Below, in pieces: positions 46,318-52,656 of a stretch of 64,000 bases of DNA (position 1 is the stretch's first letter; each line of letters begins with the position of its first letter). The translations under genes and the position numbers were made by a program. The DNA is from Caulobacter sp. BK020 (GTDB taxonomy: Bacteria; Pseudomonadota; Alphaproteobacteria; Caulobacterales; Caulobacteraceae): assembly GCF_004342605.1 (NCBI RefSeq), contig NZ_SLZL01000009.1, positions 62,001 through 126,000 on the forward strand. Direction: 5' to 3'. The notes beneath the pieces are model-generated. The model worked only from the letters and a program-made list of their open reading frames with translations. It searched no databases and was not told the origin of the DNA.

Positions 46318-47202
46318 ATGCGTCTCGCCCTGCTCCTGCCCGTGCTGTTCTGCGTCGCCGCTCCGGCCCATGCTGAGGGCGCGCGCGAGAGCCGCTACGG
46401 CCCGACGACGCCGCGCCAGACTTCCGCCGCAGCGACCGCCGTCGCCACGCGCTACGACGGCCCGATGCTCAGCTGGGCCAACAAGCGCGAAGCGCCGAGC
46501 GACCCGGTCACCGCTGCGACGCCAACGTCAACACCAGCTCAGCCCGCCCCGCTCGCCGCCTGGGCGGGCTACAGCGCGCGACCGGAGCCCGTCGCCTACG
46601 CTCCGCCCGTGGCGCCCACCTTTGCGCCACGCCCCACGGCGCTGCCGACCAGCCTCTACGCCGCGCCCCGCCCATCGCCGGTCGCCGTCGCGACGCCCGC
46701 GCCAGCTCGCCCCGCGCCGCTCCGCGACCGGGCCAGCTATGACAGGCCTCCAGCGCCCGCCGCCGTGCAGCCCGCCGCGAGCCGCCCGTCGCCGGTGGTC
46801 GGGGCTACCCCCGGCCCCGCCAGGGACTGGTCCAGCTATCGCAGCGTCCGCATGGCGACCGCCGCCTCTGCGCCTGCCGCCGCGCCGGTATCGGCCCCAG
46901 CGCCCGCGCCAGCCCCCCCGCCGCCCGCACCCCGCCAGATCGCCGCCGCCAATACCGGCGTGACCGGGGCCCGCTTCTATTCCGTGGCCCGCGAGTCCGG
47001 CCTGACGCCCGATCCGATCCCGCCGGCCGGTCCCGACCATCAGGTGTTGATCACCACCGACGCGCCGCCCTCGCCGGCCGAGGACGCCGCTCCGATGCAC
47101 GGCTCGGCCGACTGGCTGGCGGCCGGAGCGCGTGGCGACGACGACGGTGATGGCGACGACAGCGCCGCCCGCCGCGCCAAGCCCCGGAAACAAGGCCTTT
47201 GA
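46318..47202 (+). CDS. Exported Pro/Ala-rich protein of unknown function
   Basis: The 294-residue product has a signal peptide (MRLALLLPVLFCVAAPAHA) and then a low-complexity region rich in Pro, Ala and Ser with repeated short blocks such as RPSPV. A more ordered stretch near the end reads NTGVTGARFYSVARESGLTP; the C-terminus is acidic then basic (GDDDGDGDD, RRAKPRKQ). I do not recognise a family. Low complexity makes it hard to exclude a spurious frame, but the signal peptide and the TTGA overlap with the next gene support it. Confidence 0.65.
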   Translation: MRLALLLPVLFCVAAPAHAEGARESRYGPTTPRQTSAAATAVATRYDGPMLSWANKREAPSDPVTAATPTSTPAQPAPLAAWAGYSARPEPVAYAPPVAPTFAPRPTALPTSLYAAPRPSPVAVATPAPARPAPLRDRASYDRPPAPAAVQPAASRPSPVVGATPGPARDWSSYRSVRMATAASAPAAAPVSAPAPAPAPPPPAPRQIAAANTGVTGARFYSVARESGLTPDPIPPAGPDHQVLITTDAPPSPAEDAAPMHGSADWLAAGARGDDDGDGDDSAARRAKPRKQGL

Positions 47203-48290
47203 TCCAGTCGCGCCTCCACGACCTCATCGCCCTGGCCGATGAGCCGTCCAGCTCGCGCCGCCGCGAACTGCTGCGCGGGGTCACTGACCTGTTCTTCACC
47301 GCCGAGGGCCATGGCGACGTGGAGATGGGCCTGTTCGACGACGTGCTGGGCCAACTGGCCGGCGAGATGGAAGAGGCCGTGCGGATCGAGCTGGCCGAAC
47401 GGCTGGGCACGAGCGCCACCCCGCCGCCGACCCTGACCCGCGCCCTGGCCAGCGACAGCATCGCCGTCGCCCGTCCTATCCTTCAAGGCGCTCCCCAGCT
47501 CAGCGAGGCCGACCTGCTGCACGTGGCCCGCACCCAGGGCCAGGACCACCTGCGGGCCATCTCGCAGCGTTCCGTCGTGCCCAGCCAGGTGTCCGACGCC
47601 ATCGTCCAGCGCGGCGACGACACCACCCTGGGCGTGCTGCTGCGCAACGAGGGCGCGGTGCTGTCACGCCAGGCCCACGAGGCGGCCGTCGACCGCGCCG
47701 CAGCCAATCCCGAACTGCACGAGGCGGTGATCGATCGCCAGGCCCTGCCGATGGACCTGCTCAACGAGATGTACTTCGTGGCCGAGGCGCGACTGCGCGA
47801 CCGGATCATGGAGCGCAACGCCAATGTCGATCCGGCCATCCTGGAAGCCGCCCTCAAGGCTGGCCGCAACCGCGTCGCGGCCAGCGACGGCGCCCTGCCG
47901 GCCGACTATGACGCGGCGGTCAAGGAGGTCACCGCCCTGAAGGCGCGCGGCGCCGTCACGCCCCAGGCCCTGGTCGCCATGCTCCGCGCCAACCGCACCA
48001 CCATCTTCCTGGTCGCCCTGGCCGAACTGGCCGACGTCGACTTCCACACCGCCCGCAAGATTATCGAGCGCCGCGAACTGGACGCCCTGTCCGTAATCTG
48101 CAAGGCGGCGGACTTCGATCGCGCCCTGTTCCTGACCTTCGCCCTGCTGATCCTCGATCCCAACGACAACGCCATGGGCAAGGCCAAGGAATATGGCAAG
48201 CTCTACGCTGCCCTGCCCCGCGACGCGGCCCTGCGCACCATCCGCTTCTGGCGCATGCGCCGCACGACGGGCGACGTCGCGGCGGCTTGA
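47199..48290 (+). CDS. DUF2336 domain protein
   Basis: The 363-residue product is all-helical and repeat-like, with segments such as LLRNEGAVLSRQAHEAAVDR and ERRELDALSVICKAADFDR that match the DUF2336 family found mainly in alphaproteobacteria. The function is not established. The TTG start overlaps the TGA of the preceding gene by four bases, suggesting translational coupling with the exported Pro-rich protein. There are no membrane segments, so it should be cytoplasmic. Confidence 0.75.
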   Translation: MIQSRLHDLIALADEPSSSRRRELLRGVTDLFFTAEGHGDVEMGLFDDVLGQLAGEMEEAVRIELAERLGTSATPPPTLTRALASDSIAVARPILQGAPQLSEADLLHVARTQGQDHLRAISQRSVVPSQVSDAIVQRGDDTTLGVLLRNEGAVLSRQAHEAAVDRAAANPELHEAVIDRQALPMDLLNEMYFVAEARLRDRIMERNANVDPAILEAALKAGRNRVAASDGALPADYDAAVKEVTALKARGAVTPQALVAMLRANRTTIFLVALAELADVDFHTARKIIERRELDALSVICKAADFDRALFLTFALLILDPNDNAMGKAKEYGKLYAALPRDAALRTIRFWRMRRTTGDVAAA

Positions 48291-49522: not shown

Positions 49523-49825
49523 TCAGCGAATGCGGATGCGGACCGGGACGTCGATGAACGAGCCGGCGCGGCTCTTGCCGTCGGGGCCCATCAGGTCGAC
49601 CTGGAACTGCGACGCCATGGTCAGGGCCGCCTTGCCCACGCCCATTTCCGCCGGGAATTCGCTCTGCACCGAACAGGCGGTCAGGCCGCCGTCGCGCTTG
49701 ACCATGCAGCTCAGCAGCGCCTCGGCGATCTGCGGCTGTACGTCCTTGACCTGGGTGACGGCGGGCTGGGCCACGGGCGTCGGAACGATCGAGACAGCGG
49801 CGGCGGCGAGCAACGAAGCGATCAC
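49523..49825 (-). CDS. Small exported protein, TonB C-terminal-like
   Basis: The 100-residue product has a signal peptide (MIASLLAAAAVSIVP) and a single domain whose pattern (PQIAEALLSCMVKRDGGLTACSVQSEFPAEMGVGKAALTMA, read in parts) resembles the TonB C-terminal or TonB-like fold, with two cysteines that could pair. The C-terminal VDVPVRIRIR-like strand (here IDVPVRIRIR) fits the last beta-strand of that fold. It lacks the membrane anchor and Pro-rich arm of a true TonB, so energy transduction is unlikely. Confidence 0.6.
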   Translation of the reverse strand: MIASLLAAAAVSIVPTPVAQPAVTQVKDVQPQIAEALLSCMVKRDGGLTACSVQSEFPAEMGVGKAALTMASQFQVDLMGPDGKSRAGSFIDVPVRIRIR

Positions 49826-49886: not shown

Positions 49887-51263
49887 TCAGGCGGCGTGCG
49901 CCTGCTTGACCCTTTGCAACCCCTGGGCCGCGAGGTCGGTCAGAGACCGCAGGCCCAGTTCGGCGAAGATGTCGAAGGCGCTGGCCAGGGCCGTGGCGGC
50001 CCGGGTCAGCCGGCCGTCGTCGCGGCCGGTAATCTCGACCCGGGCCTCGTAGAGCCGGGCCAGGTTCATCTGGGTCACGGCCCAGGCGGCTGGATCGCGA
50101 GACCCTGGGGTCGCGGTCAGTTCGGCCTTGAAGGCCATCTCGGCGGCGTCCAGCACGGCCAGGTCGGCGGTCAGCTCAGCGCAGCGGGCCAGACTGAGGG
50201 CGCGGTTGTTGGCGACCACGGCGCGCAGGGCCAGGGCCGGCTGGGTCTTGAGGATGTGCGAGGCGCGGTCGTAGCACGTGACCGCCCGCTCGAAGCAGCG
50301 CTCCGAGGTGGTGGCCTCGCCCATGGCCTGCAGGCCGGCGCCCAGGGCGGCCTGGGCCCGGGCCCAGTCCATTGGGCTGTGATCGGCGGTGACCGGCTCC
50401 AGCGCCTGGGCCAGGGCTTCGACGCCGTCGGCGATGAAGTTGATCTCGCCGTCCAGCTCGCCCAGCTGCACCAGGGCGGTCCCGCGCAGGGACTCCAGCC
50501 GCGACCAGGCCAGGGGTTCGAAGTCGGGATCCAGGCCCGCCTCGGCCTCCCTGGCCTCAGCCAGGGCCACCTCGGTGAGGGCGCGGTCCTTCAGGCGGGC
50601 GGCGCAGGCCAGCAGCAGCTCGACGCGGGCGGCGCGCTGGTCGGCCAGCAGCAGGCGCGAGGCTCCGCCCTTGACCCGGCGGGCGGCCGACAGGCCCCGC
50701 AGCGGCGCCTCGAAGGCCTCGGCGGCGGCCAGGGCGCGATCCAGGTCGTTCTCGCCCAGAGCCACGCGGCCCTCCAATCCGGCCAGCAGGGCCTCGACCA
50801 TGGCGCAGCGGTGCCCCGGGGCGGTCTTGGCCAGGGTCAGGGTGGCCCCGGCGGCGGCGTGCAGTCCCTCGTCGCCGAACAGGTCGGCGCCCAGCACGGC
50901 CAGGGTCGCCTGCTCGCAGCGCGCGGCGGCCAGGCTCTCCGGCTTGTGCTCGGCTTCGAAGATCTTGGCGGCGGCTTCGGCCTGGGCCGCGCCCTTGCGC
51001 AGGGCGGCGGCGTCGCCCGAGCGGCGGGCCAGCTCGCGCCAGACGACGGCGGCTTCGAGCAGCCGGTGGCCGCGATCCTTCGCCCCGATCCGGCCGGCCG
51101 CGACATCGGCCGCGCGGGCCTCGTTGACCAGCAGGCGCAGGTCCAGCAGCTCCAGCAGCGAGGTGTCGCCGCCGGTCAGTCCGTCGCGATGCGCCGCGGC
51201 CCGCGCGGGAGCGGCGGCGTCGACTCCGAAGAGTCTTTTCAGGTCACGACCGAAATCGAACAT
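49887..51263 (-). CDS. TPR-like helical repeat protein behind a CtrA box
   Basis: The 458-residue product is made of helical hairpins rich in Ala and Leu that look like degenerate TPR units (for example ALREAEAGLD-type, EALAQALEPVTADHSPMDWA and CFERAVTCYDRASHILKTQP). It begins MFDFGRDLKRLFG and has no signal or membrane segment. I do not recognise an exact family. A CtrA-type box lies 88 bp upstream, suggesting cell-cycle control and perhaps a part in polarity, motility or envelope development. Confidence 0.7.
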   Translation of the reverse strand: MFDFGRDLKRLFGVDAAAPARAAAHRDGLTGGDTSLLELLDLRLLVNEARAADVAAGRIGAKDRGHRLLEAAVVWRELARRSGDAAALRKGAAQAEAAAKIFEAEHKPESLAAARCEQATLAVLGADLFGDEGLHAAAGATLTLAKTAPGHRCAMVEALLAGLEGRVALGENDLDRALAAAEAFEAPLRGLSAARRVKGGASRLLLADQRAARVELLLACAARLKDRALTEVALAEAREAEAGLDPDFEPLAWSRLESLRGTALVQLGELDGEINFIADGVEALAQALEPVTADHSPMDWARAQAALGAGLQAMGEATTSERCFERAVTCYDRASHILKTQPALALRAVVANNRALSLARCAELTADLAVLDAAEMAFKAELTATPGSRDPAAWAVTQMNLARLYEARVEITGRDDGRLTRAATALASAFDIFAELGLRSLTDLAAQGLQRVKQAHAA

Positions 51264-51350
51264 CGCTGCGTACTCCGGACACGGAACGTCCCAGGCCGGG
51301 ACGTCCGGCGCAGGTTCAACGCACGACTAGCAAAGCCGGAGCCAACACGT

Positions 51351-51365
51351 TTAACAAGCCGTTAA
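51351..51365 (-). promoter_or_regulatory. CtrA box upstream of the TPR-like gene
   Basis: TTAACAAGCCGTTAA fits the full CtrA consensus TTAA-N7-TTAA exactly. The surrounding 363-base gap (51264-51626) holds no gene, is AT-rich for this genome, and has two further TTAACCAT half-sites at 51383-51390 and 51544-51551. Because the next gene to the right also runs leftwards, the TPR-like gene is the only target. Confidence 0.7.
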
Positions 51366-51626
51366 CGAAGCCTAAGGCGGCGTTAACCATAAATATTTGC
51401 AACGCGCTTGCACTTCGTTCCTCAAGGGGGTCCAAACCCCCGTTTTTGCACCGATTTGGCACACTTCTTGCTTGACCGTCCCCGGCCGAGAAACGGACTC
51501 CGACGCGCTCGTTAGAACATTGTTCACCGAAGTGAAAATGACGTTAACCATAGATTTTAAGATCGAGTTTACCTTCTGTTCCGGCCCGGCTGCTCAACGG
51601 CGCCCGGAACGCGACTCCCTCGCCGG

Positions 51627-52076
51627 CTAGAGGCCGTAGCCGCGAGCCATGGCGGCGGCGAAGATCGGGATCAGAGCGAAGACCAGAAGCTCGGCCAGCA
51701 TCACCTTGCGGACCTTGGCGACCTCGGTGTCCGACGGGGTGAAGGCGGAATCGGCCTTGGCCTGCTTGCGCCATTTCAGAATGGCGATCGTCGGGGCGAT
51801 CGACAGCAGCCCCACCGCCGCGAAGGCGGCGATCTTGGCCCAGAACACCGGGTTGTGCAGATAGAAGTCCGCCCCCTTGGCGCCCAGATAGACCCGGCAG
51901 AAGCCGACCACCAGGATCAGGGTCGCCGTCCCGCCGTAGCTGGCGTCGATCCCGGCCAGGGCCTTGAGACTTGCTCCGCTCACGCCGGGCCTGACCAGCA
52001 CGAACCCGGCCATCATCAGCCCGGCCAGCGACAGGATCAGCAGGTGGTGCAGGACGGCCAGGACGAGATCCAGCAT
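51627..52076 (-). CDS. DUF2214 family membrane protein
   Basis: The 149-residue product has four predicted helices (VLAVLHHLLILSLAGLMMAG, GGTATLILVVGFCRVYLG, FWAKIAAFAAVGLLSIAPTI and ELLVFALIPIFAAAMARG). This matches the small DUF2214 membrane family, whose function is unknown; the histidine pair in helix 1 is a family feature. The ATG at 52076 is preceded by GGAG; the frame is open to 52136 without a ribosome site. Confidence 0.8.
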   Translation of the reverse strand: MLDLVLAVLHHLLILSLAGLMMAGFVLVRPGVSGASLKALAGIDASYGGTATLILVVGFCRVYLGAKGADFYLHNPVFWAKIAAFAAVGLLSIAPTIAILKWRKQAKADSAFTPSDTEVAKVRKVMLAELLVFALIPIFAAAMARGYGL

Positions 52077-52185
52077 GGCGGGCTCCGACTCGGTGGAACG
52101 TTGGACCAGCATGGCCGGAAGAACGGCGTTCGTCACGGGCCCGCCTGCTCTGGCCAGCCCTCGCCTCCCCCTCTAAACAGGGGCC

Positions 52186-52656
52186 ATGACCGCTTCCGTC
52201 GACCTCTGGACCGCCTCGCTCTGCAAACCCGATCCCGGCTATGGCGGCTGGGCCCATGTGCGCCGGAACGCCGACGGGACCCTGGCCGGCGCGGCGGGCG
52301 GCGAGCGACGGGTCAGCGGCGCCAGGATGGTGCTGACCGGAGTGATCGAGGCGCTGGCGGCCCTGGGCGACCTGCCGGCCGACACGGCCGTCACCCTGCA
52401 CTTCGCCGATCCGGCCCTGGCGGCGGAACTGGTCGCCAGCGACGGCGCCTGGGCCACGGCCGAGCCCGAGGCCTGGGCCGCAGCCCGCCAGCGGCTGGCC
52501 GCTCGGCCGGTGCTGACCTTGTCGCCCCTGGCCGATGCGACGCCCGCCGCCGGCTTCCTGAAGGCCTGGGCCGACTTCGGGCTCGACACCGCCAAGACGC
52601 GGGGCACGTTCAAGGCGGCGATCCCGCGGCCGAACCTGCTGAAGTTTCCCGGCTAG
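52186..52656 (+). CDS. RNase H-fold protein lacking catalytic residues
   Basis: The 156-residue product lines up with RNase HI by eye: DLWTASLCKPDPGYGGWAHV for the first strand and loop, and SGARMVLTGVIEALAAL for the first helix. RNase HI needs Asp10 (tDGS), Glu48 (NRMEL) and Asp70. Here the first Asp is replaced in WTASLC and the Glu by Val in ARMVL, while an Asp remains in LHFADPAL. It is therefore probably inactive and may bind nucleic acid or protein. It is divergent from the DUF2214 gene. Confidence 0.6.
   Translation: MTASVDLWTASLCKPDPGYGGWAHVRRNADGTLAGAAGGERRVSGARMVLTGVIEALAALGDLPADTAVTLHFADPALAAELVASDGAWATAEPEAWAAARQRLAARPVLTLSPLADATPAAGFLKAWADFGLDTAKTRGTFKAAIPRPNLLKFPG

Follow-up and report, generated by a model that had tools for sequence, protein, structure and literature searches.

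CtrA is an OmpR-type regulator without an AAA+ domain, and sigma-54 RNA polymerase requires an AAA+ enhancer-binding protein. In the usual Caulobacter cascade, as outlined in a section of PMC3930126, CtrA switches on the early flagellar genes, and the later ones are switched on by sigma-54 together with its activators. The RpoN motif of Caulobacter is printed as GGCNC-N4-CTTGC in an extract of PMC4287350. C. crescentus CC_1072, annotated "Ribonuclease H", is listed in Table 2 of PMC3073932 as a direct, cell-cycle-regulated CtrA target, and a passage of the same source gives it as 3.35-fold up in carbon starvation. The region before a gene for a TPR-like protein was compared with these systems in a window of 64,000 nucleotides, that is, the whole stretch of DNA analysed, which comes from a Caulobacter-like genome with Caulobacter species as its closest named relatives. 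It resembles the promoters of the CtrA regulon, represented by CC_1072 in the tabulated part of PMC3073932, in its TTAA-N7-TTAA and TTAACCAT sites, and the two divergent regions would be one and the same should CC_1072 prove to be the counterpart of the neighbouring RNase H-like gene. Unlike those promoters, the box here adjoins a sigma-54 element and is missing in two genera which keep the gene and the element. With the RpoN cell-cycle promoters of Caulobacter (spmX and flagellar genes, in the extract of PMC4287350) the locus shares the element GGCNC-N4-[C/T]TTGC and a gene found mainly in flagellated, RpoN-bearing genomes, and it differs from them by a CtrA box at a fixed 22-bp offset beside the element. 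The favoured explanation, considered fairly probable, is that the TPR gene belongs to motile or polar development, is transcribed with sigma-54 and is gated by CtrA in some lineages.

The gap at 51264-51626 is bounded by the start of the 458-residue TPR-like ORF (49887-51263, minus strand) and by the stop of a DUF2214 ORF (51627-52076, minus strand). The lowest-GC 300-bp stretch of the window begins at 51281, having 52.3% GC compared with 69.1% for the window. The earlier note had described the gap as the only markedly AT-rich one; it is indeed the lowest in GC but not the sole one, as the stretches at 2511 and 13151 reach 55.3%. The predicted elements in the gap were more conserved than its remainder (major-allele frequency 0.84-0.96 against 0.64, 45 loci), and the gap is best read as an old regulatory region that was divergent in origin. 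The Rfam scan of the window gave no family at gathering score and the tRNA scan of the window gave none. The idea of a replication origin, arising from the AT-rich gap and the CtrA sites, was set aside; the neighbouring genes gave no hint of one. A small ORF at 51537 was also rejected because the conserved block at that place is explained better by CtrA sites. A terminator-like hairpin, GC-rich and followed by a T-run, was noticed on the plus strand at 51426-51441 and by eye is not kept in the relatives; it may be due to chance, since one such hairpin was counted and shuffles average 0.9.

The CtrA box TTAACAAGCCGTTAA (51351-51365, plus strand) is an exact TTAA-N7-TTAA lying in the promoter region, as expected of a CtrA-regulated promoter, and is the sole match in the 64 kb window (1 against a mean of 0.01 in 100 shuffles), thereby bearing out the exact consensus claimed previously. 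The two TTAACCAT half-sites claimed along with it are also present, at 51383 and 51544, compared with a shuffle mean of 0.11 and no shuffle having two. The first is followed by AAATATT (51383-51397, plus strand) and showed a mean major-allele frequency of 0.963 against a background of 0.638 in 45 loci, and the second (51544-51551, plus strand) lies inside a conserved AATGACGTTAACC..TTTTAA block. Across the genome the exact box is rare, with 15 copies counted in 5.13 Mb and 7 sites for the control pattern.

The distribution of the box was analysed in 141 upstream regions. For the genus, 74 matching genomes yielded upstream loci from 70, of which two without the N-terminal match (L077 and L092) were removed to leave 68; outside the genus, 74 matches were hand-picked, mostly beginning at model position 1, and 73 were analysed, with L238 left out. 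The genus loci are mutually related, so that counts across them are not independent. The exact box was found in 70 of the 141 regions: at the same place in 45/45 close relatives, in 12/23 loci from the far part of the genus (57 of the 68 genus loci), in 10/20 of genus g7, in 0/20 of g3, in 0/18 of g15 and in 3/15 of the others. The proposal of a CtrA-controlled promoter was thus upheld in part. It is supported by the conservation of the box within the genus and by the likely counterpart of the divergent gene, which is a printed CtrA target in the tabulated part of PMC3073932. However, g3 and g15 keep the gene without the exact box, and the sigma-54 element was present in all 38 of their loci, which argues that the TPR gene is probably not a simple CtrA-activated gene.

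The element TGGCTCCGGCTTTGCT, predicted to be a sigma-54 (RpoN) -24/-12 element toward the TPR gene, is located at 51329-51344 on the minus strand and was recognised by conservation and motif match. Its -24 GG and -12 GC are 10 bp apart in the consensus TGGCNC-N5-TTGCW. The pattern GG-N8-TTGC[AT] was present at -60 to -99 from the ATG in 138 of the 141 upstreams (68 genus and 73 outside), compared with a shuffle mean of 0.6 and with counts of 0, 0, 1 and 1 across four control windows. The search pattern itself dictates the GG and TTGC letters, and the informative result is the presence of the pattern. The consensus from 127 distinct leaders was YGGCNC-N5-TTGCW. The -24 half is degenerate, its first position being C for T in 71 of these leaders, and the far part of the genus has a GGAC-type half, where YGGC fits 1 of 23. 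TGGCAC-N5-TTGC occurred 5 times in the genome and 5 times for the control, that is, without enrichment; therefore, the support for sigma-54 comes from conservation at the locus. The RpoN gene is present in the genome of the window and was found in 19/20 TPR-bearing family genomes tested. Two flagellin sigma-54 sites have GGCAAAACGCC-type palindromes downstream, which are presumably ftr-like FlbD sites, and by eye none was seen in the gap. The sigma-54 element is the more widely kept feature and CtrA is limited to lineages, because the element is found in 138/141 regions and the box in 70/141, with none in g3 and g15. As part of the whole best explanation, the family-wide conserved promoter before the TPR gene is rather probably of sigma-54 type, with the CtrA site beside it in some branches only.

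The spacing between the two sites was then considered in gene orientation with the box upstream. Measured between the opening base of the CtrA box and the first G of the -24 half, the offset was 22 bp for 64 of the 71 instances of the exact box, 23 bp for 5 and another value for 2, and the distance of the sigma-54 element to the ATG in the genus varied from -73 to -86. The constant offset despite the varying ATG distance points to a coupled pair and not to unrelated sites. In the proposed mechanism, sigma-54 RNA polymerase would start the TPR gene at 51329-51344 (minus strand) with an AAA+ enhancer-binding protein. The box, whose end is about 7 bp away from the -24 GG, would be occupied by CtrA in Caulobacter and in some members of one related genus, and from this fixed distance CtrA may time or restrain the TPR promoter. 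More tentatively, and at somewhat less than an even chance, CtrA may act directly on the sigma-54 polymerase through the box 22 bp from the -24 GG, in one promoter without a cascade, and the gene-specific leader palindrome with its paired changes may add a second layer.

An ordinary CtrA-activated TPR promoter of sigma-70 type, in which the box would stand at -35 and the -10 near GCTAGT (51325-51330), would also account for the exact box in all the close relatives. According to a portion of PMC11264516, a single site at -35 is usual in promoters activated by CtrA. At the TPR gene, transcription beginning some 34 bp from the centre of the box would likewise be reasonable. This arrangement is nevertheless unlikely, as the promoter search turned up no sigma-70-type site, the bases past TTTGCT are free to vary while GG-N8-TTGC is kept, and the element persists in 38/38 loci of the two genera without the exact box. 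It was judged improbable that the GG-N8-TTGC block is the site of another protein or part of a longer leader structure. Such a role would agree with the degenerate -24 half seen in some of the genus loci and with the conservation of the inner bases, but the constant spacing and position of the block, its match to the RpoN motif in the published extract (PMC4287350) and the occurrence of RpoN in nearly all the TPR-having genomes tested argue for a sigma-54 promoter.

The divergent side of the gap was also analysed. A second predicted sigma-54 element, TGGCACACTTCTTGCT (51457-51472, plus strand), is directed away from the TPR gene toward the RNase H-like gene and matches the RpoN motif of the PMC4287350 extract exactly, whereas the TPR-side element differs from it by one position. 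The rightward TGGCAC-N5-TTGC was found in 44/45 close relatives and in 0/96 other loci, and the alignment of relatives revealed a palindrome, GAACATTGTTC (51515-51525), downstream of it. The 156-residue RNase H-like protein is encoded at 52186-52656 on the plus strand (PRK00203, E 3.7e-7), and its gene was adjacent to the TPR gene in 43 genus genomes at E < 1e-40. The DUF2214 membrane protein gene (PF09980, E 1e-45) lies on the opposite strand and separates the rightward element from the RNase H-like gene in the clade of the window. It was present in 9 of the 11 closest genus loci, including that of the window, and the surroundings of the other 57 genus loci analysed showed no copy; in relatives without it, the RNase H-like gene is the immediate divergent neighbour. 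Because of this intervening gene, transcription proceeding rightward in the window (51484-52186) would be antisense to DUF2214; only the clade of the window shows this arrangement. The earlier note had named the TPR gene as the sole downstream gene, which is incomplete, as the RNase H-like gene too has a conserved sigma-54 element on the plus strand and CtrA sites directed toward it. In the opposite direction, this second element and the TTAACCAT sites would serve the RNase H-like gene.

The RNase H-like protein aligned with ribonuclease HI (1ril) over residues 5-79 (E 0.0021). It differs from ribonuclease HI in that TDGAC is replaced by TASLC and RMEL by RMVL, and the copy in C. vibrioides DSM 9893 (L014) has IANLC and KMSL at those motifs. 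The altered acidic positions are presumably catalytic, so the product of the divergent gene would lack two catalytic acidic residues of ribonuclease HI. Its counterpart in C. crescentus is likely to be CC_1072, as suggested by the annotation of the latter. We take CC_1072 to sit just before fliQ (CC_1075) and cckA (CC_1078) in C. crescentus. The least probable account is that CtrA acts on the divergent RNase H-like gene only and that its sites are unrelated to the TPR gene, since the listing of CC_1072, taken as this gene, as a CtrA target in the tabulated part of PMC3073932 and the TTAACCAT sites and exact RpoN motif facing it are set against a box-element distance which is also held in 12 far-genus and 10 g7 loci without the divergent sigma-54 element.

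The leader predicted downstream of the TPR-side sigma-54 promoter contains a palindrome, GTCCC-N5-GGGAC (51288-51302, minus strand), identified by alignment and pair counts. It is usually positioned 25-27 nt past the -12 element TTGC and takes the form GTATC-N5-GATAC in most g15 loci. At least 4 of the 5 pairs were found in 134 of 138 element-bearing loci, in 13 of which the best-scoring match was at offset 19. Pairing was kept in 93.5% of cells and two-sided changes numbered 17 against 4.0 in shuffles, a count which drew on 93 of the 127 distinct leaders. These counts favour pairing but are ambiguous, because kin sequences share changes and a DNA operator would look alike. When seven leaders were folded as RNA, the z-scores were weak (+0.8 to -2.1). 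The exact palindrome has two copies in the genome, the other one being within a coding ORF, so that this is the only promoter copy. The genome-wide search with one mismatch gave 42 against 104 for the control, hence it is not a genome-wide motif, and the combined pattern of TTGC and palindrome gave 7 genome matches, one of which is the TPR locus. The leader palindrome may equally be an operator or an mRNA hairpin specific to the TPR gene.

The TPR-like protein (458 residues; 49887-51263, minus strand) consists of a conserved N-terminal helix followed by a helical TPR solenoid. The ORF gave no match in Pfam and NCBIfam at E 0.1, Pfam TPR families included, and no match in the PDB sequence search. 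The AlphaFold2 model was a confident helical solenoid (pLDDT 87.5) showing the repeated helix-turn-helix arrangement of TPR proteins. Conservation is strong over residues 1-12, MF[ED]FGR[DE]LKRLF, and this segment is amphipathic (moment about 0.8). The gene was found in 74/75 genus genomes, in 19/22 genera and in 172/199 family genomes, two of these 172 matches (G167 and G171) being partial repeat matches. The model has a helical TPR scaffold in common with Rap-type and LGN/Pins-type adaptors (PDB 4gyo, 8rte, 4wnd). For 4gyo and 4wnd, Foldseek gave E 1e-5 to 3e-5 with TMq 0.42-0.43, and VIA-align gave Z about 22 and rmsd 5.3-6.0 over 319-329 aligned residues; the match is of the predicted, generic TPR fold at 8-16% identity. 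The shared-fold searches with the model returned nothing beyond generic TPR matches. The gene is possibly CCNA_01127 of C. crescentus, a 1377-nt gene for which, according to an extract of PMC3951458, the correction of the reading frame dates only from 2014. The possible starts in L014 give 1368, 1374, 1380 and 1401 nt, none exactly 1377, so the name is suggested without an exact match of length. In the open-access literature, the CCNA_01127 entry in that extract was the only publication found for the gene, and the portions of PMC7010744 and PMC6169604 at hand contained nothing on it.

The relation of the TPR gene with motility was analysed in 20 of the 27 TPR-lacking family genomes and 20 TPR-having ones. 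Among these 40 genomes, 8 were without flagellin, all 8 were without RpoN and 7 of the 8 were without the TPR gene, the exception (G185) having a weak TPR match though it lacks flagellin and RpoN. Flagellin was present in 13 of the 20 TPR-lacking genomes; therefore the TPR gene is not needed for flagellation. In the genus g22, 14 of 16 genomes were without flagellin and none of the 14 had a full-length TPR gene, while one of the two flagellated genomes had the gene. The seven flagellin-less g22 genomes that were tested were also without RpoN, and g22 offers a natural example of motility lost in this family. In the window, a small, weakly TonB_C-like gene (49523-49825, minus strand; profile match and C. 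vibrioides comparison) directly follows the TPR gene. In C. vibrioides DSM 9893 the TPR gene is followed by a similar small gene, fliQ, fliR, flhB and a hybrid histidine kinase gene, presumably cckA. These relations support, without proving, a role of the TPR gene around the flagellum or the pole.

Other genes were noticed in the neighbourhood. A DUF2336 gene at 47199-48290 of the window matched SpbR (NCBIfam E 1.7e-35, below its cut-off), and a relative was near the TPR gene in 6 of 11 other loci compared. A PF10090 histidine phosphotransferase gene, presumably of the ChpT kind, occurred within about 5 kb of the TPR gene at L028:7126-9142 (Brevundimonas) and L261:10337-11035, and in L028 a cheR-like gene follows.

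In the sigma-54 reading, the TPR protein would be made in cells building a flagellum or remodelling the pole, and it would most likely be a cytoplasmic adaptor combining an amphipathic N-terminal helix with a TPR scaffold. The unnamed, family-wide TPR protein is a candidate factor of motile or polar development, and a promoter in which CtrA and sigma-54 come together at a constant distance would provide a compact example for testing their direct crosstalk.
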